Source of the DNA: a virus
Length of the DNA stretch: 43,206 bases
Virus record (IMG/VR): IMGVR_UViG_3300032213_000051
Location: 1 to 43,206 of that record
Strand: one strand, 5' to 3'
Below the pieces are notes generated by a model. That model saw nothing but the letters and a program-made list of their open reading frames with translations. It searched no databases and was not told the DNA's origin. Each line of letters begins with the position of its first letter. Position 1 is the first letter of the stretch. The position numbers and the translations under genes are program-made. Of the stretch, positions 79-23,100 are shown piece after piece.

Positions 79-987
79 ATGGCTATTTCACGCGCACAAC
101 TACTGAAAGAGCTGCTCCCCGGCTTGAACGCATTGTTCGGTCTGGAGTACGCTCGTTACGGCGAAGAGCACAAGGAAATCTACGAAACCGAGACTTCCGA
201 GCGTTCGTTTGAAGAAGAAACCAAACTGTCTGGCTTTTCTGCCGCACCGGTTAAGAACGAAGGTTCTGCAATCGCGTACGACAACGCACAAGAAGCATGG
301 ACTGCTCGATACAACCACGAAACCATTGCTCTGGGTTTCTCGCTGACCGAAGAGGCCATCGAAGATAACCTGTATGACAGCCTGTCGGCTCGTTATACCA
401 AGGCTCTGGCTCGTGCTATGGCTTACACCAAGCAGGTTAAGTCGGCTAACGTACTGAACAACGGCTTCTCGTCGTCCTATCCGGGCGGTGATGGTCAGGC
501 TCTGTTTTCGTCTACCCACCCGCTAGTTTCCGGTGGCACCAATTCGAACATCCCAGCTACTGCTGCTGACTTGAACGAAACTTCGCTGGAAAACGCTGTG
601 ATTCAAATCGCTGCGTGGACTGACGAACGTGGTCTGCTGATCGCTGCTAAGCCGAAGAAGCTGATTGTTCCTCCTGCTCTCCAGTTCGTTGCTACTCGTC
701 TGTTGGAAACCGAACTCCGCGTCGGCACTAACGACAACGACATCAACGCCCTGAAGAACAACGGTTCGATCCCAGAAGGCTATACGATCAACCACTTCCT
801 GACCGACACAAACGCATGGTTCCTGACCACTGACGTTCCAAACGGCATGAAGCACTTTGTTCGTAGCCCGCTGGCTAACTCAATGGACGGAGACTTCGAT
901 ACGGGCAACGTCCGTTACAAGGCTCGTGAGCGTTACTCGTTCGGCTGGTCTGACCCGCTGGGCATGTACGGCTCGCAAGGCGCGTAA
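79..987 (+). CDS. Major capsid protein, Mu gpT-like
   Basis: This 302-residue protein resembles the Mu gpT-like major head subunit family, which assembles the icosahedral shell. It has the acidic N-terminal helical region, a central stretch with LFSSTHPLVSGG (about residues 140-155) and a C-terminal end (RYSFGWSDPLGMYGS) typical of these capsid proteins. Length is normal for the family. The ATG at 79 has AAGGAG seven bases upstream. A strong hairpin terminator follows directly, as expected for the most abundant virion protein. Codon use is regular and favours C-ending codons, consistent with high expression. The family call is from recognition; the capsid role is also supported by its position at the head of the structural genes. 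Confidence 0.85.
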   Translation: MAISRAQLLKELLPGLNALFGLEYARYGEEHKEIYETETSERSFEEETKLSGFSAAPVKNEGSAIAYDNAQEAWTARYNHETIALGFSLTEEAIEDNLYDSLSARYTKALARAMAYTKQVKSANVLNNGFSSSYPGGDGQALFSSTHPLVSGGTNSNIPATAADLNETSLENAVIQIAAWTDERGLLIAAKPKKLIVPPALQFVATRLLETELRVGTNDNDINALKNNGSIPEGYTINHFLTDTNAWFLTTDVPNGMKHFVRSPLANSMDGDFDTGNVRYKARERYSFGWSDPLGMYGSQGA

Positions 988-1619: not shown

Positions 1620-2405
1620 ATGGCGAATATCGGAACTTGGCGTTCTATAACCCAAGTAGGTACGTACGAGCCGTTTGATTTGCAGGCTTCTCGCGGGCAG
1701 ATTACAGGGCACACCGGCCTAGAGATTTTTGGGTTTACCACAGCTATCGGTAGCTCTGCTCAAGGCCCAATGTGGGAAGGCCAAACCCTTTCTGGCGGTT
1801 TGTATACGCCACCGGCTGCTGCCGCCCCACTGGTGCTGGTTAGCGACTCGGCGACTGACAATACAACCCGCTCGGTTGTGATTGAAGGTTTGGGTGCTGG
1901 TTTTGTGCCGCTTACCGAAACTATCGCATTGAATGGCACAACGAACGTCACCACGACTAATTCGTTCCTGCGGATTAACCAGATGTCTATGTTGAACAGC
2001 ACCAACACGGGCAACATCACGGCATCCATTAGTTCTACCGTGTACGCCAAAATCAATGCGGGTATTGGTCAGACGCAGATGTCGATTTACACCGTACCTG
2101 CTGGGTACACATTCTACCTGTCGTATGTTCAGTACGATGCAAGCATTGGTTTTACTTCAAGCAATTACATGACTGCTTTGGAGTACAACAAAATTAACAG
2201 CGGTACCAACAATGGCCGAATTACGCTATTGAATCAAACAACCTTTGTGCAAAAGCAAGAAATTCCGTTTACGGTGCCAATACCGCACATTGAAAAGACC
2301 GACATTCAGTTCTGCGTGAAAGCCAACACTGGCAGTCCGTTTACGGTCAGTATGTACGCAGGTGGTTACTTAATCCAAAACTATATCCAAGGTTCAAATG
2401 GCTAA
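1620..2405 (+). CDS. Putative virion structural protein
   Basis: A 261-residue protein rich in Thr, Asn, Ser and Gly with predicted beta content and no catalytic motif. It reads like a head-fibre, decoration or minor tail protein. The ATG at 1620 follows GGGG at 1611-1614, and its end overlaps the next gene by eight bases, which suggests coupled translation. It lies in the same tight group as the preceding structural gene. No named family was recognised. Confidence 0.7.
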   Translation: MANIGTWRSITQVGTYEPFDLQASRGQITGHTGLEIFGFTTAIGSSAQGPMWEGQTLSGGLYTPPAAAAPLVLVSDSATDNTTRSVVIEGLGAGFVPLTETIALNGTTNVTTTNSFLRINQMSMLNSTNTGNITASISSTVYAKINAGIGQTQMSIYTVPAGYTFYLSYVQYDASIGFTSSNYMTALEYNKINSGTNNGRITLLNQTTFVQKQEIPFTVPIPHIEKTDIQFCVKANTGSPFTVSMYAGGYLIQNYIQGSNG

Positions 2406-2643
2406 GTCTCCGGCATGGCAGAGGAAAGAGGGAAAGAATCCCAAAGGTGGCTTGAACGCCAAGGGAAGAGCCTCTGCGAAAGCGCAAGGCATGAACTTGA
2501 AAGCTCCCCAGCCGGAAGGCGGAAAGCGCAAGGACTCTTTCTGCGCCCGTATGTCAGGGATGAAAAAGAAGCTGACTTCTTCGAAGACGGCAAATGACCC
2601 GAACAGCCGGATTAACAAAAGTTTAAGGGCGTGGAAATGTTGA
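2398..2643 (+). CDS. DUF6321-like small basic protein
   Basis: An 81-residue Lys/Arg-rich protein. The opening (MAKSPAWQRKEGKNPKGGLN), the central APQPEGGKRKDSFCARM and the end INKSLRAWKC match my memory of the DUF6321 family, found in phages and environmental sequences; its function is unknown. The strong positive charge would suit a DNA- or RNA-binding virion or early protein. It overlaps the preceding gene by eight bases, and its stop codon overlaps the start region of the HNH gene. The family name is from memory and unchecked. Confidence 0.75.
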   Translation: MAKSPAWQRKEGKNPKGGLNAKGRASAKAQGMNLKAPQPEGGKRKDSFCARMSGMKKKLTSSKTANDPNSRINKSLRAWKC

Positions 2644-2648
2644 GTGTT
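2632..2648 (+). repeat. Left copy of an imperfect repeat flanking the HNH gene
   Basis: TGGAAATGTTGAGTGTT here resembles TGGAAGTGTTAAGCATG at 3066-3082; 11 of the first 13 bases are identical. The two copies bracket the endonuclease VII-like gene, and both encode a C-terminal Trp-Lys-Cys followed by a stop. This is what a duplicated insertion boundary could look like, but chance or convergence is possible at this length. Confidence 0.4.
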
Positions 2649-3077
2649 AAACGAGACTGGGGCAGGGTACCAAAAGCTCCAGATGCGGATGGAAATTACC
2701 GGTGTAGTAAGTGCCGGGAATGGAAGCCGCCAGCAGCGTTTAACAAGTCCAAAGCGCAAAAATCTGGTTTAAGCTACGCCTGTCGAGTGTGCATGCGTGT
2801 AGATGTACGTAAATACAACCTGCCTACAAAATATGGAATAACTGCGGCGCAATTTGCTGAAAAACTTCTAGCACAAGGTGGAAAATGTGCTTGTTGTGGA
2901 ATCCAATTTCAAATTGATGGGTATAAAGCAGATCGTCCTTGTGTAGACCATAACCACAATACTGGCGAAGTACGTGATTTACTCTGTGGGAAGTGTAATT
3001 TAGCGGCCGGAAACGTAAATGATAGTTCCGAACGGGCTAAACAATTGCTTGCTTATTTGGAAAAATGGAAGTGTTAA
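2637..3077 (+). CDS. Endonuclease VII-type HNH endonuclease
   Basis: This 146-residue protein fits the recombination endonuclease VII (His-Me finger) family, which cuts DNA and often occurs as free-standing homing genes in phages. Counting from the ATG at 2637, an N-terminal zinc-binding pair of CxxC motifs (C23/C26 and C49/C52) precedes the nuclease domain with CACC at 84-87, the catalytic VDHNHNTG at about 103-110 and a second CGKC at 117-120. The ATG overlaps the preceding stop (ATGTTGA); a GTG at 2631 is an alternative start. It interrupts a run of structural genes and its base composition is more A/T-rich than its neighbours (for example TGTGCTTGTTGTGGA), which suggests recent arrival. 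Confidence 0.85.
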   Translation: MLSVKRDWGRVPKAPDADGNYRCSKCREWKPPAAFNKSKAQKSGLSYACRVCMRVDVRKYNLPTKYGITAAQFAEKLLAQGGKCACCGIQFQIDGYKADRPCVDHNHNTGEVRDLLCGKCNLAAGNVNDSSERAKQLLAYLEKWKC

Positions 3078-3322: not shown

Positions 3323-4162
3323 ATGAAAAAGAAAGTCAGAAAGTTTGCCAGCGGTGGCGACATTATTACCGGTCTTGGCGCAGTTTTGATTGGTAAAGCT
3401 CTGTACGATAAGTATAAGGGTAAAGATCAAGACGAGGGTAAGGCTAAGCTCAAGTACGAAGAAGAGAAAGCTGAGCCTGAAAAAAAGAAAGATGATTCAA
3501 AAGGCTTTACTCAGGAAGCTAGGGATAAGTATCTGGAAGAACGCGGCGCTAAGCCCCTGCAAGAAACCGGCACCCGTGCGAATCCTTATTATACAGAGGA
3601 CGAGCCAGCACCCAAGAAATCAGTAGTAACAACTACGCCTAAGAAAGCAGCGCCAGCAGCTAAGAAAGTCACGCCAGCGGCACCAGCGGCTAAGAAAGCT
3701 GAGCCAGCGGCTAAGGGCGAAGCGCCAAAGTCCGTAGTGTTTAAGCCCACAGAAGATAGCAAGAAGGCTGAGTCGCCAGTAAGCAAGAAGGCTGAGTCGC
3801 CAGTAAAGCTGGGCTCCCCCGGCAATTACAAGTTTGACTCCAAACCTGATCTTAGTACGCCAAAAGGCTTTGATCTAAAAGGCACTAATAAGACTGTGTA
3901 CGGCACTGACACGACTAGCGTGTTCCAGAATAAAGCCGCGCGGGAACGTGCTGAGGCTGAAGAGAAAGCCAAGAAGAAAGCAAAAGAGCAAGCAAATATC
4001 CGCAGCGGAGAATCTGAGCGCATGATGCGTGAGTCATTGGGTTCGGGGTTTAAGCGTGGCGGGGCGGTCAAGAAGTACGCATCCGGCGGCTCGGTAAGTT
4101 CAGCGTCCAAGCGTGCTGATGGCATCGCTCAGCGCGGTAAGACTAAAGGGAGAATTTGCTAA
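3323..4162 (+). CDS. Lys/Ala/Pro-rich protein with C-terminal RADGIAQRGKT tag
   Basis: A 279-residue, highly charged, low-complexity protein. Residues 10-32 are glycine-rich and mildly hydrophobic (GGDIITGLGAVLIGK). The middle is a disordered Lys/Ala/Pro region with a near-perfect tandem copy of KKAESPV at about 148-162. The last 36 residues carry the tag GGAVKKYASGG...RADGIAQRGKT that recurs in the next three genes. Composition resembles histone-tail-like, nucleic-acid-binding sequence. It starts three bases after the previous stop and ends in TAATG with the next gene. No named family is known to me; an internal virion protein is an inference. Confidence 0.7.
   Translation: MKKKVRKFASGGDIITGLGAVLIGKALYDKYKGKDQDEGKAKLKYEEEKAEPEKKKDDSKGFTQEARDKYLEERGAKPLQETGTRANPYYTEDEPAPKKSVVTTTPKKAAPAAKKVTPAAPAAKKAEPAAKGEAPKSVVFKPTEDSKKAESPVSKKAESPVKLGSPGNYKFDSKPDLSTPKGFDLKGTNKTVYGTDTTSVFQNKAARERAEAEEKAKKKAKEQANIRSGESERMMRESLGSGFKRGGAVKKYASGGSVSSASKRADGIAQRGKTKGRIC
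4121..4144 (+). repeat. Copy 1 of the tag-coding DNA repeat
   Basis: This 24-base stretch encodes GIAQRGKT. It is identical to 4450-4473 and matches 4788-4811 at 20 of 24 bases. The three copies end three consecutive genes, which points to duplication at the DNA level. Confidence 0.8.
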
Positions 4163-4491
4163 TGGCTGACAAGAAAACAGAGGGTAAAGGGCAGGGGCTA
4201 CCGCGAGGTAAAGCTACTTTTAGAGCCGGTCAGACGATGATTGAAGATGGGGATGAGGACGACATAACAGTTGTGCGCGACCCCAATGATAAGCGCCTAA
4301 ACCATTTGTATCGCCCACCCATAGGTGGAAAACGTGGCAGTCCTTTCAAAACCCGTGACGAAGCGGCAGAATACGCTTCTGAACTGCAACGTGAAACTCG
4401 CGGCATGAAAAAAGGCGGTGCAGTAAAGTCAGCATCAGCCCGTGCAGACGGCATCGCTCAGCGCGGTAAGACTCGTGGAAAGGTGTGCTGA
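4162..4491 (+). CDS. Small basic protein with C-terminal RADGIAQRGKT tag
   Basis: A 109-residue protein read from the ATG at 4162, which shares its A with the stop of the previous gene (TAATG); a TTG two codons upstream is less likely. The N-terminal half is acidic and basic in patches (MIEDGDEDDITVVRDPND) and holds RPPIGGKRGSPFKTRDEAAEYA at about 50-71, which looks folded. The last 28 residues carry the shared tag (KKGGAVKSASARADGIAQRG). The body is unrelated to its neighbours, so the tag seems to be a module joined to different bodies. Function unknown. Confidence 0.7.
   Translation: MADKKTEGKGQGLPRGKATFRAGQTMIEDGDEDDITVVRDPNDKRLNHLYRPPIGGKRGSPFKTRDEAAEYASELQRETRGMKKGGAVKSASARADGIAQRGKTRGKVC
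4450..4473 (+). repeat. Copy 2 of the tag-coding DNA repeat
   Basis: Identical over 24 bases to 4121-4144 and also at the 3' end of a gene. Confidence 0.8.
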
Positions 4492-4829
4492 TGGCTATGG
4501 AAAACGAAATTGAAAACGCTCGTAGAGATGCGCTCGTAAAGAAAGAATACGAGGAGTACGAGAAACAGTTAAAAAAAGAGCGCGAGGAGAATGAAGCCCC
4601 GCGCAAAACTGTTCGTGAAGCATTACTTGGGCTTGGCGCAAAACTAATGCCTTCAAAGCCGCCTGTAAAAGAAAAAGAAAAGAGTGCTGCGGAATCGATT
4701 GGCGAAGCAGCGCGTAAAAGTTTGCCACCTAAAGGAAGCGGCATGAAGTCTGGTGGCTCAGTTAAATCAGCGTCGGCTCGTGCTGACGGCTGTGCTCAGC
4801 GCGGCAAGACTCGCGGGAAGATCGTCTAA
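4491..4829 (+). CDS. Coiled-coil basic protein with C-terminal RADGCAQRGKT tag
   Basis: A 112-residue protein starting at the ATG at 4491 (TGATG with the previous stop). The first 45 residues are a strongly charged helix, probably a coiled coil (KKEYEEYEKQLKKEREENEA). A Pro/Lys-rich linker follows, then the shared tag (KSGGSVKSASARADGCAQRG), with Cys in place of Ile and ending KIV rather than in Cys. The gene ends TAATG into the next one. No family is recognised; an internal or DNA-associated virion role is inferred from the tag and location. Confidence 0.7.
   Translation: MAMENEIENARRDALVKKEYEEYEKQLKKEREENEAPRKTVREALLGLGAKLMPSKPPVKEKEKSAAESIGEAARKSLPPKGSGMKSGGSVKSASARADGCAQRGKTRGKIV
4788..4811 (+). 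repeat. Copy 3 of the tag-coding DNA repeat
   Basis: Matches copies 1 and 2 at 20 of 24 bases and ends the third consecutive gene. Confidence 0.75.
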
Positions 4830-5476
4830 TGCCAAGCGTATCAGCTAAACAACACCGTCTCATGGCTGCGGTGGCAACTAATCCAGCCGTGGCTAAGAAG
4901 ACTAAGATTCCACAGTCTGTGGGAAAAGAGTTTATGGAAGCCGATAAAGGCAAGAAGTTTAAAGGAGGCGGTGAGATGAAAGAATCAAAGGCGATGGTTA
5001 AGAAGGAGATCGGCTTCATGAAGAAGAAGGGTGCTCCTAAGTCAATGATCAAGCATGAGATGAAAGAAGCTGGCATGAAGAAGATGGCCTCGGGCGGTCT
5101 GGCTGCTGGTCACAAGTCGGCTGATGGTATTGCTATGAAAGGCAAGACCAAGGGCAAAGAAGTCAAGATGGCGATGGGTGGTGCTGCGATGGGCGCGGTT
5201 AGAAATGCAGCGGCTGCTAAGGCAGGCCCGATGTTGCAACAGGCCGCAGCACGTAGTGCAGCTTCACAAGCAGCGCCGAAACAGTTTATGTCTAACGCCC
5301 TTCGCGGCGGTTCCATGCAGGGGTTAGGAAGTGCCGCCGCAGGGAAAATGATGGGCAAAAAAGCTGGCGGTCTAGCCGCTGGTCACAAAGCAGCTGACGG
5401 TATTGCCAAGAAGGGCAAGACCCGTGCTATGCAGGTCAAGATGGCTGGCGGCGGTAAAACTAAGAAGTATTGCTAA
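4829..5476 (+). CDS. Basic protein with two internal ADGIA-GKT tags
   Basis: A 215-residue Lys/Ala/Met/Gly-rich protein. The N-terminal part (SAKQHRLMAAVATNP, then VGKEFMEADKGKKF at about 31-44) is a motif I recall from many environmental phage proteins without a known function. Two diverged tag copies follow, GGLAAGHKSADGIAMKGKT near residue 90 and GGLAAGHKAADGIAKKGKT near 182, separated by an Ala/Met-rich helical stretch. It ends with a basic GGGKTKKYC, so a terminal Cys recurs as in two sister genes. The start overlaps the previous stop (TAATG). It is likely a virion or DNA-associated protein, by inference only. Confidence 0.7.
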   Translation: MPSVSAKQHRLMAAVATNPAVAKKTKIPQSVGKEFMEADKGKKFKGGGEMKESKAMVKKEIGFMKKKGAPKSMIKHEMKEAGMKKMASGGLAAGHKSADGIAMKGKTKGKEVKMAMGGAAMGAVRNAAAAKAGPMLQQAAARSAASQAAPKQFMSNALRGGSMQGLGSAAAGKMMGKKAGGLAAGHKAADGIAKKGKTRAMQVKMAGGGKTKKYC

Positions 5477-5754: not shown

Positions 5755-5988
5755 ATGAAAGCCCCTCAACAGTCGCTTAAAAACTGGGGAGACCAGAAAT
5801 GGCGCACAAAGAGTGGCAAGCCATCCTCGAAGACTGGCGAAAGGTACCTGCCAGAAAAGGCAATCAAGGCGCTAAGCCCGGCGGAGTACGCAGCAACGAC
5901 CAAGGCAAAGCGGGCAGGGAAGAAAGCAGGGAAGCAGTTCGTAGCGCAGCCCAAGGGCATCGCAAAGAAAACAGCGGGGTTTAGATAA
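5755..5988 (+). CDS. DUF5872-associated protein, C-terminal half type (GERYLPEKA)
   Basis: A 77-residue basic protein starting at the ATG at 5755, one base after the preceding stop. It contains SLKNWGDQKWRTKSGKPS, GERYLPEKAIKALSPAEYAA and GKQFVAQPKGIAKKTAGFR. I recall these as the second half of a single protein in algal and large eukaryotic viruses. Its frame is open upstream to 5665, overlapping the first half, so a frameshift could join the two. The pair looks like a split or frameshift-linked version of one protein. Function unknown. Confidence 0.75.
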   Translation: MKAPQQSLKNWGDQKWRTKSGKPSSKTGERYLPEKAIKALSPAEYAATTKAKRAGKKAGKQFVAQPKGIAKKTAGFR

Positions 5989-6728
5989 TGGCAGTTACAA
6001 CCTCAGTATCGACGTTTAACCCGACTCTCAATGAAATATTTGAAGAGGCGTTTGAGCGTTGCGGGCAAGAAATGCGCACGGGTTATGACTTCCGTACGGC
6101 ACGACGCAGCCTGAATTTCCTGCTGGGGGAGTGGGCTAACCGTGGCGTGAACTTATGGACGATTGAGCAAGGCTCGATTAACTTGGCGCAGGGGGTAACG
6201 ACCTATGATCTACCTAATGATACCGTTGATCTTCTGGAACATGTTATTCGCACTGATTCCGGACAAGGCCCTAATCAGACGGATTTGAACATCACCCGTA
6301 TTTCGGTCTCGACTTACTCGACCATTCCGAACAAGTTGGCGCAAGGTCGCCCGATTCAGGTATGGATTAATCGTCAGTCAGGGCAGACAACAGATTTGCT
6401 GGGGGCTACTCCAGCCTATCCACAGATCAATGTGTGGCCCGCTCCCGACCAAGGTACGACCCAACAGCCGTACTACGTGTTTTATTACTGGCGTTTGAAA
6501 CGAATTTTTGATGCTGGAAACGGTATAAACGTGCCTGATATTCCGTTTCGTTTCCAGAATTGCTTGGTGGCAGGTCTGGCTTATATGCTGTCAATTAAGC
6601 TGCCGAATGCTGACCCGGTTAGGTCACAGGCGTTGAAGGCTATGTATGACGAGGCTTGGGAGTTAGCGGCGGGTGAAGACCGTGAGAAGGCGGCTGATCG
6701 ACTTGTTCCACGTGAAATGTTCTTCTAA
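5988..6728 (+). CDS. Head-tail adaptor, P22 gp4-like
   Basis: A 246-residue protein that resembles P22 gp4-like tail accessory factors, which bind below the portal ring. The helical start (NEIFEEAFERCGQE, then DFRTARRSLNFLLGEWANRG) is typical, followed by a beta region (YDLPNDTVDLLEHVI, INVWPAPD) and a C-terminal helical part with GLAYMLSIKLP. It is longer than P22 gp4 itself. The start overlaps the previous stop (TAATG), as does the next gene. The family is assigned by eye; a second adaptor-like gene lies at 7595. Confidence 0.6.
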   Translation: MAVTTSVSTFNPTLNEIFEEAFERCGQEMRTGYDFRTARRSLNFLLGEWANRGVNLWTIEQGSINLAQGVTTYDLPNDTVDLLEHVIRTDSGQGPNQTDLNITRISVSTYSTIPNKLAQGRPIQVWINRQSGQTTDLLGATPAYPQINVWPAPDQGTTQQPYYVFYYWRLKRIFDAGNGINVPDIPFRFQNCLVAGLAYMLSIKLPNADPVRSQALKAMYDEAWELAAGEDREKAADRLVPREMFF

Positions 6729-7173: not shown

Positions 7174-7335
7174 ATGGACAGCATGAAGAAAGTAGCCAAG
7201 GCGGAAGTCAAGGCTCACGAGAAGCGGATGCACAAGGGCATGGCTAAAGGCGGCGTGACCGGCGAAGCGATGCGGAAAATGGGTCGCAACATGGCTCGTG
7301 CCATGAACCAGAAGTCATCCGGTCGAGGCCGTTAA
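7174..7335 (+). CDS. Small basic protein (53 residues)
   Basis: A short gene from ATG 7174 to TAA 7333-7335. It has a good Shine-Dalgarno (GGAG at 7165-7168) and its stop overlaps the next start (TAATG). The product is Lys/Arg/Met-rich, opening MDSMKKVAKAEVKAHEKR and containing MAKGGVTGEAMRKMGRNMAR. The KGG-V motif echoes the tag in the 3.3-5.5 kb genes. It is likely nucleic-acid-binding or a virion component; the function is not known. Confidence 0.7.
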   Translation: MDSMKKVAKAEVKAHEKRMHKGMAKGGVTGEAMRKMGRNMARAMNQKSSGRGR

Positions 7336-7592
7336 TGGCTAAATATTCACAGAAGCAGGGTGGCAAAGAAGTAGGCCAAGCTGCGACTTATGCGGAGCCA
7401 CATACTATGGACGGCAAAAAAGTTAAGGGCGACCTGCCTTACAAAGCGGGCGCTAAAGTCATAACTGAGATGAATCCTTCTGTTGCTGGGCTTTCCAAAG
7501 GCAACTACAAGGAAACCAAGACTACCGGCATTAAGATGCGCGGCACCGGTGCTGCCACTAAAGGCACAATGTCCCGTGGCCCTATGGGTTAA
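7335..7592 (+). CDS. Small basic Gly/Lys-rich protein
   Basis: An 85-residue basic protein, coupled to the preceding gene by TAATG. It has no membrane segment or catalytic motif. The residues GKKVKGDLPYKAGAKVI and the C-terminal MRGTGAATKGTMSRGPMG suggest a flexible, positively charged chain. Its place between the two adaptor genes suggests a minor virion protein. No named family was recognised. Confidence 0.65.
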   Translation: MAKYSQKQGGKEVGQAATYAEPHTMDGKKVKGDLPYKAGAKVITEMNPSVAGLSKGNYKETKTTGIKMRGTGAATKGTMSRGPMG

Positions 7593-7594
7593 TC

Positions 7595-8323
7595 ATGAAC
7601 TACACCGAACTGTTCAATACTGTTAAGTCATACTGCGAAAACGATTTCGCAGCGTCGTCCTTTACGGCGGCGGGTGGCGGCACTGTCGTGGTGCCTAGTA
7701 CTGAGCAGGTCGATACGTTCATCAAGCAGGCTGAGCAGCGCATTTATAACTCTGGCAACCCGCCGATACTGAAACACAATGTATATGGGCGGCTGGATCA
7801 GGGTGATAAATATTTGAATCTGCCAGAAGATTTTCTAGCGGTGTATTCGTTGGCGGTACTAACCGACACCACAGCCGGGGAAGATAGCCCGCAGGAGTTC
7901 TTGCTCAATAAGGACGTTAGCTTTATTCGGCAAGCTTATCCTGATCCGACTTATGAAGGCGTGCCTTTGTACTATGCGCTGTTTGGCCCTAATACCGGGT
8001 TCAATGTACCCAAGCCAAACACGAATTACACAATGATCGTATCGCCTACGCCTGATGATAACTATCAGGTTGAGTTGCACTACTTCCGTTACCCAGAATC
8101 AATTGTTACTGCTGGTACGTCATGGCTTGGCAATAACTTTGACACAGTATTGTTGTACGGCGCGTTGATGGAAGCCATCGTGTTCATGAAAGGCGAACAG
8201 GATATGGTCGCGTTCTACAAGTCGCGGTATGACGAAGCGTTAATGATGTACAAGCAGTTGACTGACGGCAAGGAACGTCAAGACTCGTACCGCACGGGGC
8301 AACCACGGATGCCAACGGTATAA
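7595..8323 (+). CDS. Adaptor protein, SU10-like
   Basis: A 242-residue protein resembling the phage SU10 adaptor family, which connects portal and nozzle in short-tailed phages. Seen: an N-terminal helix, VDTFIKQAEQRIYNSGNPP at about 42-60, the beta stretch DKYLNLPEDFLAVYSLAV at about 70-88, a repeat-like beta region with MIVSPTPDDNYQVELHYFRYP, and a C-terminal helix (YGALMEAIVFMKGEQDMVAF). It starts two bases after the previous gene. The helical end and the LNLPEDFL motif are the main support. Confidence 0.65.
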   Translation: MNYTELFNTVKSYCENDFAASSFTAAGGGTVVVPSTEQVDTFIKQAEQRIYNSGNPPILKHNVYGRLDQGDKYLNLPEDFLAVYSLAVLTDTTAGEDSPQEFLLNKDVSFIRQAYPDPTYEGVPLYYALFGPNTGFNVPKPNTNYTMIVSPTPDDNYQVELHYFRYPESIVTAGTSWLGNNFDTVLLYGALMEAIVFMKGEQDMVAFYKSRYDEALMMYKQLTDGKERQDSYRTGQPRMPTV

Positions 8324-20831: not shown

Positions 20832-21205
20832 CTGAACGGGACGCCGCTATTAAGTTGGTGTACAAGTCCGTTAGAGGACGCGCTCCGTTTGCGTTAGAAG
20901 AGTTTGTCCAGATGCTAAGGCTATGGTCAGTGGTGCCCCTCCATGAAAATGGGCAGGTTATCGGCGGTGTGTTAATAAAAGAGAATGAATTACATGTAGG
21001 GTATGGGGAAAAGCCCAGAGCTTCAATCCGGCCTTACATCAAAGAAATATTGGGCGGGGTCATAGGCAAGTATGGTTTTGCAGTGACCACGGTACAGGCA
21101 GACAATCCAGCGGGTTTACGCTTCTGTGAGCGGCTAGGATTTGTCAAATTAGACGAAGAAAACGGTACAATCCGGCTAAGATGTGATAGGAGTAACTACT
21201 TATGA
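20828..21205 (+). CDS. GNAT-like acetyltransferase-fold protein
   Basis: A 125-residue protein with the GCN5-related N-acetyltransferase outline: GQVIGGVLIKENELHVGYG (central strands), IKEILGGVIGKYGF (helix) and ADNPAGLRFCERLGFVKL (C-terminal strand-helix-strand). It opens the ejection block, where T7-like phages carry gp13-type internal proteins. It could be a true acetyltransferase or a structural derivative; the acetyl-CoA pyrophosphate loop (Q/RxxGxG/A) is not obvious, so activity is doubtful. It overlaps both neighbours by four bases. Confidence 0.7.
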   Translation: MTERDAAIKLVYKSVRGRAPFALEEFVQMLRLWSVVPLHENGQVIGGVLIKENELHVGYGEKPRASIRPYIKEILGGVIGKYGFAVTTVQADNPAGLRFCERLGFVKLDEENGTIRLRCDRSNYL

Positions 21206-23100
21206 TCCGCAATAAATACAACGGGTATGGGTTCGATGGTTCTCGGCTCTACCATGATCCTATCTCTCTTTCTATTGCGGCTACCAAGGCTGGTGCCGCT
21301 TCTTCCGCCGCTGCCGCTGGAACCGCCGCTGCTCAAACTGCCGCCCTAGAAGTAGCTAAGCAAGCCACCATCCAAGAGAGCATGAGGCAGATGGGTATAC
21401 AGGCTGCTAAACAGGCGGGTGTTGAAGCTACTAAACAGGTTGGCCTTGAAGCTACTAAGCAGGTCGCTGCGGAGGCTGCTAAACAAAGTGCCGTTGAAGC
21501 AAGTAAGCAAGGTATCGCACAGGGATTCCAGAAAATGATCCCGCAGGCCGCAGATGATATTGCTGCTCAAGTTGGTTCTTCTGGTTATTATAATCCTGCG
21601 ACCGCTTCTGTACCGTATGGTAGCCCTACACCGCCTGCACCCGCCACTGCTCCCGCACCCGCTGGTTCTCCTGCGCCCGCTACTACTCCTGCTCCTGCCG
21701 GTTCAACGCCCAACTTGGAGGCATTAAAAGCTCAAACTATTCAGTCTGGGTCGCCTTCTGTTACTCCAAGTTTAGACACATTAAAAGCGCGGGTTATTCA
21801 ATCTGGCTCGCCTATCGCGCCGGAATCCCAGCTTTTAGCTGAGCAGGCCGCAAGAATGCCCTCTACCGGTGGAAACTTCCCCGGCATAAAAATGACGCCA
21901 GACAAAGCGTTCGGCCCTGAGTCAAGCGGTATTTACAAAGGCAAGAACTTGGAGACAGGCGAGGCATTCGAGACGCTTTCTAGGCCATCTTTCAACCCCC
22001 CTACAGGCGACGGTTCTGGACTGAAACTGTCAGATACTTTACGGCAATCGCTTAGTCAGCCAACACCAGAAAGTCCTTTGGCAAAAGGCGCTCGTGAGGC
22101 TATGGATTGGATGGGCAAGAATAAACTTGAAACCGGCCTTGGTTTGATGACGGTTGGGCAGTACATGAACAAACCCAAAGGGGACGAAGAGGACAAAGAC
22201 AAGTACAAGAGTACGGTCGATATGTCGGATTTCCGCCCAACAATACCTGAACAGCCGTCGTTTACCCGCTCGTATGAGTACCAGAACTATCAGGCTGGTG
22301 GCCCGGTTGAAGATATGTCCCGTATGAATAGTATCGGGGCTAACACCGGCTTCCCTATGGCAGGATTGCAAACCCCAGCGTATTCTGTAAGTTCAGCCAC
22401 GCCGATGCCTGTAAACACTTTGACCCCTACGGCTGACGCTTCTGTTAGTACCTACAGTGGTGAAGCACGGTTTGCTAGTGGTGGCCTTTCTGAGGCGCAG
22501 CGTCGTGAATACGGTCTTAGAACTCGTAGTGAACGTGCATCTAGAGACCTGACAAAGTCCTACGAAGAGATGGAAGCCGAGCGCGAAAGAGAAGCGATGA
22601 AGCTGTTTAATGAAAGCTCTCTCCCAACGCCTCGCCCTATTTCTCGTAGCCGCACCCAAGAACTAAGCAGCCCCTTTTCCGCTGCAATGACTGAACACGC
22701 ACGACTCGCTAAAAAAGCTAAAGTGCCGGTTGTCCCGATGCCTAAGACTAATTTAGGTGACATCGACACCTACATGGACATCCCGATTGAAGCCGCGAGT
22801 GGGGGCATCATGCACGGTCTTGGTGGTTATTCCGATGGTGGGCGACTCTTAAGGGGGCCGGGCGATGGAGTTTCGGATTCTATTCCTGCTGTTATTGGTA
22901 AGCGGCAGCCTGCTCGTCTTGCTGATGGCGAGTTTGTAATCCCAGCGCGTATTGTCTCTGAGTTGGGTAACGGTTCTACTGAAGCTGGCGCAAGAAAACT
23001 CTACGCCATGATGGAGCGCGTTCAAGCATCGCGTAAGAAAAGCATTGGTAAGAAGAAGGTAGCGGTCAACAGCAAAGCTGACAAACACCTGCCCGCATGA
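21202..23100 (+). CDS. Internal virion/ejection protein with octapeptide repeats and GEFVIPARI motif
   Basis: A 632-residue protein. Residues 70-101 are four octapeptide repeats of KQ-x-x-x-E-A-x type, so a helical rod is likely. A Pro/Ala-rich linker follows at about 135-170, then two copies of an IQSGSP-containing motif (about 180-215). GG motifs recur (QAGGPVEDM, FASGGLSEA, AASGGIMHG). The C-terminal part (LADGEFVIPARIVSELGNGS, then ARKLYAMMERVQASRKK) is a motif I recall at the end of aquatic podovirus ejection-type proteins. It fits the internal-core class. Function is inferred from position. Confidence 0.65.
   Translation: MIRNKYNGYGFDGSRLYHDPISLSIAATKAGAASSAAAAGTAAAQTAALEVAKQATIQESMRQMGIQAAKQAGVEATKQVGLEATKQVAAEAAKQSAVEASKQGIAQGFQKMIPQAADDIAAQVGSSGYYNPATASVPYGSPTPPAPATAPAPAGSPAPATTPAPAGSTPNLEALKAQTIQSGSPSVTPSLDTLKARVIQSGSPIAPESQLLAEQAARMPSTGGNFPGIKMTPDKAFGPESSGIYKGKNLETGEAFETLSRPSFNPPTGDGSGLKLSDTLRQSLSQPTPESPLAKGAREAMDWMGKNKLETGLGLMTVGQYMNKPKGDEEDKDKYKSTVDMSDFRPTIPEQPSFTRSYEYQNYQAGGPVEDMSRMNSIGANTGFPMAGLQTPAYSVSSATPMPVNTLTPTADASVSTYSGEARFASGGLSEAQRREYGLRTRSERASRDLTKSYEEMEAEREREAMKLFNESSLPTPRPISRSRTQELSSPFSAAMTEHARLAKKAKVPVVPMPKTNLGDIDTYMDIPIEAASGGIMHGLGGYSDGGRLLRGPGDGVSDSIPAVIGKRQPARLADGEFVIPARIVSELGNGSTEAGARKLYAMMERVQASRKKSIGKKKVAVNSKADKHLPA
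21409..21504 (+). repeat. 24-base tandem repeats encoding an octapeptide
   Basis: Four imperfect 24-base units encode KQAGVEAT, KQVGLEAT, KQVAAEAA and KQSAVEAS in frame with the 632-residue protein. Units can be gained or lost by slippage. Confidence 0.75.

Follow-up and report, generated by a model that had tools for sequence, protein, structure and literature searches.

A terminal peptide tag shared by unrelated small proteins in the head module of aquatic phages, a candidate head-cargo docking signal

The window analysed here, that is, the 43,206-base viral record IMGVR_UViG_3300032213_000051 at its full length (positions 1 to 43,206), contains four neighbouring genes whose products share a peptide tag of ~20 residues with the consensus KKGG-V-SASKRADGIAQRGKTRGK[MI][VC]-stop. 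In the sequences searched, the tag is confined to the head module of one large group of aquatic phages, most of them uncultured. We infer that it may act as a C-terminal head-cargo docking signal, with docking, packaging and injection all belonging to that inference, and we give this reading about an even chance of being correct.

The tagged genes and their five tag copies

Gene 1 (3323..4162, + strand, 279 aa) is composed of a conserved N-terminal region of ~37 aa (MKKKVRKFASGGDIITGLG...), which is present in 35 related loci, a variable middle rich in Lys, Ala and Pro, and the tag at its end (copy 1, ASGGSVSSASKRADGIAQRGKTKGRIC-stop, 4076..4159, + strand). Gene 2 (4162..4491, + strand, 109 aa) consists of a body and a terminal tag (copy 2, KKGGAVKSASARADGIAQRGKTRGKVC-stop, 4408..4488, + strand); its body has no relatives among the related loci fetched for body comparison and no Pfam or PHROG match. 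Gene 3 (4491..4829, + strand, 112 aa) combines a Lys/Glu-rich body, found in four relatives, with a terminal tag (copy 3, KSGGSVKSASARADGCAQRGKTRGKIV-stop, 4746..4826, + strand). The endings of the three genes follow GG-V-(S)SAS-RADG[IC]AQRGKT[KR]G[KR][IV][CV], with ADG-x-A-x-x-GKT cores at 4115-4144, 4444-4473 and 4782-4811 and GKT exactly five residues from the stop in each. Gene 4 (4829..5476, + strand, 215 aa) opens with a module of ~44 aa (MPSVSAKQHRLMAAVATNPAVAKK...) followed by two internal copies of the tag, with cores ADGIAMKGKT (copy 4, 5120..5149, + strand) and ADGIAKKGKT (copy 5, 5393..5422, + strand, 17 aa before the stop). Elsewhere gene 4 usually carries a single tag, and the copy in the window has an inserted low-complexity stretch and a second tag.

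An earlier sequence-only reading had described one module in four neighbouring genes, terminal in the first three and twice inside the fourth, and we located the motif at all five sites. The other observations of that reading hold as well: the four proteins are basic (pI 9.7-10.5), the 24-base stretch GGCATCGCTCAGCGCGGTAAGACT is the same in genes 1 and 2 and matches at 20/24 positions in gene 3, and the bodies differ, since genes 1-3 give no mutual match once their tags are removed (best E 0.05). A chance repeat is ruled out, as composition-preserving shuffles of the four proteins are expected to give 0.00015 matches in total and five are observed.

The segment G-IAQR-GKT, like practically every tag, spells the Walker A or P-loop pattern GxxxxGK[ST]. 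A P-loop NTPase was rejected because almost nothing follows the motif, usually five residues, and neither a P-loop domain in Pfam nor such a fold in the low-confidence models was found; the match in text is a coincidence of spelling. Structure prediction for genes 2 and 4 gave low-confidence models, unsuited to a fold search; they leave the tag without structure, which would fit a peptide that takes up its fold when bound.

Genomic setting

The tagged island is bordered upstream by the gene of the major capsid protein (79..987, + strand). In full-length alignments with tagged relatives this protein keeps an identity of about 83-96%, in contrast to the turnover of the tagged bodies. A DUF6321 protein (2398..2643, + strand) adjoins the island, and a SU10-type head-tail adaptor (5988..6728, + strand) forms its downstream border, with a second SU10-type adaptor at 7595..8323 (+ strand). 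The order of terminase, portal, GroES, scaffold, capsid, DUF6321, tagged island and adaptor recurs in all longer contigs mapped, as far as each of them reaches. In one sample, loci were picked by the capsid protein alone, not by the tag, and 35 of them reach the adaptor. Thirty of these 35 carry the tag, and 67 of their 69 tags lie between the capsid and adaptor genes. Five loci are without it; the tag is therefore common and not obligatory.

The tag core is also found near the N-terminus of a small protein encoded between the two adaptor genes (MAYTRSADGIAKKGKT...) in three relatives (L215:13298, L226:4747 and L260:5697). Together with the internal copies, this means that the module is not tied to the C-terminus and that a free C-terminus is not essential.

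We also noticed an HNH-endonuclease-like gene, judged by eye, inserted beside the tagged island at 2631-3077 of the window, which may help to move cassettes. Further downstream, a predicted ejection-region protein (window 21202-23100 and L209:12429-13313) has a conserved end, GPGDG-SD-IPA...DGE-VIPA-VVS-GNGSTEAG, in common with the cultured phage MinM2.

Spread, conservation and alternative explanations

A search with gene 4 returned 532 viral stretches with relatives, and the exact back-translated pattern of the tag core gave at least 120 matches in viral contigs. Among the matches listed from public viral contigs, 324 different proteins end in the tag. The 314 of these with bodies of at least 30 aa fall into 87 blastp groups, 53 of them singletons, with the qualification that the largest group (121 bodies) may merge low-complexity bodies. 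A logo built from 279 different C-termini shows D, A, T and both G of ADG-x-A-x-x-GKT as invariant or nearly so, with K kept in 99%.

The same sequence-only reading had taken a shared terminal module on unrelated bodies for a sorting, packaging or DNA-binding signal. This interpretation is supported in part. The 87 body groups, the fixed distance to the stop and the conservation at the protein level strongly support a shared terminal signal, and the location in the head module fits head cargo. A Gly/Arg/Lys-rich basic tag on basic bodies, encoded in the head module, would suit a nucleic-acid-binding tail that condenses or organises the head DNA, or binds RNA, with the bodies as variable spacers. 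However, charge-driven tails drift, whereas here the exact residues are kept (Asp is invariant, and Gly, Ala and Thr are fixed), and although 257 of the 314 bodies have a positive net charge, 29 are negative. We regard such a tail as unlikely; that D, G, A and T are so strictly kept speaks for a specific protein partner in the head over plain DNA binding.

GKT lies five residues from the stop in most tags and two residues from it in a minority (GKTRA). A terminal position after a conserved GG-V segment, near head genes, is also what a recognition or cleavage site of the head maturation protease, or a chaperone or degradation signal, might look like in place of a docking peptide, and the internal proteins of T4 are indeed processed (PMC9026906). 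The internal and N-terminal copies speak against this, the last residues of the tag vary (V, C, I, R, L, Y) in a manner unlike a strict degron, and the protease reading stands without any protease identified in this analysis, so that we consider a role in processing or stability rather improbable.

The 24 identical bases of genes 1 and 2 had been read as a sign that the duplication is recent or under selection, and the two halves of that claim have to be separated. If the tag DNA were a homology patch for recombining bodies into the island, or the product of recent local duplication, the peptide itself could be without a role. The window's three terminal copies, with 23 of 32 shared codons identical, are closer than average and may be somewhat younger duplicates, and in one relative (L227:14072-14174) two tag copies stand in direct tandem at one gene's end (14072 and 14144), 72 bases apart. 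Over the whole set, however, 332 distinct DNA versions are found among 348 terminal tags (36 bases compared), and shared residues use the same codon in 43% of cases within a locus vs 41% between loci. Codon identity is thus about equal within and between genomes while the residues are invariant, the pattern left by selection acting on the peptide; what is preserved is therefore the protein sequence and not the DNA, and the fixed reading frame and stop distance point the same way. Selection on the peptide stands, while codon diversity rules out recent duplication or a DNA-level element as the general cause. We consider the DNA-level explanation very unlikely and largely refuted in general, with a role in cassette exchange possible beside a role of the peptide. 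Alternatively, the tag might have no part in head assembly and work inside the infected cell once the protein has been made or injected, e.g., by binding a host protein. This would agree with bodies that vary as host-interaction proteins do and with a phage-confined tag absent from bacterial genomes. Against it, the tags are tightly linked to the capsid-adaptor interval, and genes for host takeover are usually found in early regions; we consider this reading very unlikely.

Searches for known families gave little. The tag belongs to no Pfam or PHROG family as judged from 60 diverse tagged proteins, the few matches being body modules or marginal (E about 0.01) and none recurrent, and a PDB search was without match. 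The tag pattern was found only twice in 84,980 bacterial and archaeal genomes (257 Gb), both times by chance, and a prophage or host origin was rejected on this basis. No paper with the motif strings emerged from a search of the literature.

Fused modules and cultured phages

Gene 4 is not simply one more body under the tag. Its first ~44 residues (window 4829-4960) form a separate portable N-terminal module, which also occurs at L307:4001-6535, L308:3001-3792 and L309:3001-3177: it opens two jumbo-phage proteins annotated as structural, GAP32_317 (about 845 aa) and 121Q gp51 (263 aa), whose bodies are unrelated, and a 58-residue protein of phiKZ consists mostly of this module. One tagged protein of a relative is made of the gene-4 module and the tag, and in another case the DUF6321 domain is itself tagged (L153:1618-1941). 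Together these links point indirectly to the virion.

DUF6321 (PF19846) resembles the tag in being a short basic module that stands alone or closes longer families of phage proteins at their C-terminus, and it is abundant in cyanophages and pelagiphages; it differs in its length of about 80 aa and its sequence, and it lies beside the tag or, in some cases, carries it. Its relatives are present in 528 cultured-phage records, mostly of cyanophages. As DUF6321 makes up the C-terminal part of much longer PHROG families, it is possibly another shared terminal module.

A tblastn search of the tag consensus against cultured-phage records gave no match; in a local control, the same query does find viral contigs, with E about 1e-8 for a database of that size. 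The sole cultured carriers are MinM2, Pag-Yong1 and Pra-JY27, in which one type of gene, located just after the capsid gene, ends in a diverged copy, RDGCAKRGRTKGRFI-stop; in MinM2/Pag-Yong1 its product is the protein MM2_5 (OQ594354, 2274-3200). In the cultured relatives CRP-901 and HTVC023P, with capsid proteins 58-64% identical, this form of the tag is absent from the stretches scanned. The literature search found neither virion proteomics of relatives nor a structure of any tagged protein.

Comparison with known systems and proposed mechanism

The internal proteins of T4 have a short capsid-targeting sequence in common while their mature parts diverge, and relatives of T4 have different basic proteins with such signals; the signal is N-terminal, 10-19 residues long and removed by gp21 (PMC9026906). 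Like T4 IPI-III and Alt (PMC9026906), the tagged proteins are divergent, small and basic under one short signal, and the head genes stay constant while the cargo set changes between relatives. Two features of the T4 type are thus found here, a short signal on divergent proteins (87 groups, one tag) and variable cargo with conserved head genes. The N-terminal position is not, as the tag is mostly C-terminal, with five residues after GKT; it is also ~20 residues long and unrelated in sequence.

We counted in favour of docking the conservation, the 87 body groups, the capsid-adaptor location, the gene order, the codon data, the basic bodies, the fused modules, the unstructured tag of the low-confidence models and the diverged tag at the same gene position in a cultured relative, and against it the 5/35 loci without tag, the internal and N-terminal copies, and the lack of this tag form in CRP-901 and HTVC023P. 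In the docking reading, the tag would be a portable signal of ~20 residues, usually at the very C-terminus, that guides a fast-changing set of small, mostly basic proteins, probably disordered for the most part, to a conserved component of the head as it assembles. Candidate docking sites are the inner capsid surface, the scaffold or the portal. The tagged proteins would then be packaged in the head and probably delivered with the DNA. The logic would be that of the T4 capsid-targeting sequence moved to the opposite end of the protein, in which a constant head and a constant peptide go with changing basic bodies in a head operon.

Encapsulin cargo-loading peptides are short C-terminal peptides on unrelated cargo that is encoded beside the shell gene. 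The tag resembles them in this outline; it differs in that the shell here is a tailed-phage capsid into which loading is presumed.

Other terminal motifs in related phages

In marine phages with related portal, scaffold, GroES, capsid and adaptor genes, another motif, RGGGAAIRG..FKGVF-stop, ends at least 16 unrelated bodies. Its stop always follows two residues after FKG (113/113), and its genes lie within the portal-to-adaptor region in the loci that could be mapped. The cultured pelagiphage HTVC023P carries one such protein, gp51. The marine motif (HTVC023P gp51 and relatives) thus resembles the tag in being strictly terminal, on unrelated bodies, in the head module and often preceded by GG, a segment found before many of its copies; its sequence is different, and the tag profile does not score it above shuffles. 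A third ending of similar shape, RGTGAATKG-MARGPMA, is found in a small gene of the window itself (7335..7592, + strand, ending MRGTGAATKGTMSRGPMG-stop) and in its relatives, where it is C-terminal in 90/90 matches and distributed over seven body groups. All three endings have an R..G-x-A..[RK]G core near the stop in common. As the profile of the window's tag scores the marine and RGTGAATKG motifs near shuffles and not significantly above them, homology is kept only as a lead.

A broader reading, which we put forward tentatively, is that the proteins of a large aquatic phage group, to which the HTVC023P-type pelagiphages belong, bear labels at the C-terminus that are specific to each lineage, RADGIAQRGKTRGKMV in that of the window and RGGGAAIRG..FKGVF in the marine one. 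These labels would be read by a conserved head, so that almost any small protein might become head cargo by gaining about 20 residues.

Implications

Whatever its mechanism, the tag is a simple sequence marker for the hypervariable head island of this group. If it is a head-cargo signal, it could serve as a small C-terminal handle by which chosen proteins are loaded into phage heads, and hundreds of proteins of very abundant aquatic phages, almost all of them without annotation at present, would become candidates for packaging or injection. In podovirus-type phages, the T4-like targeting of varied internal proteins would then have evolved in another form.
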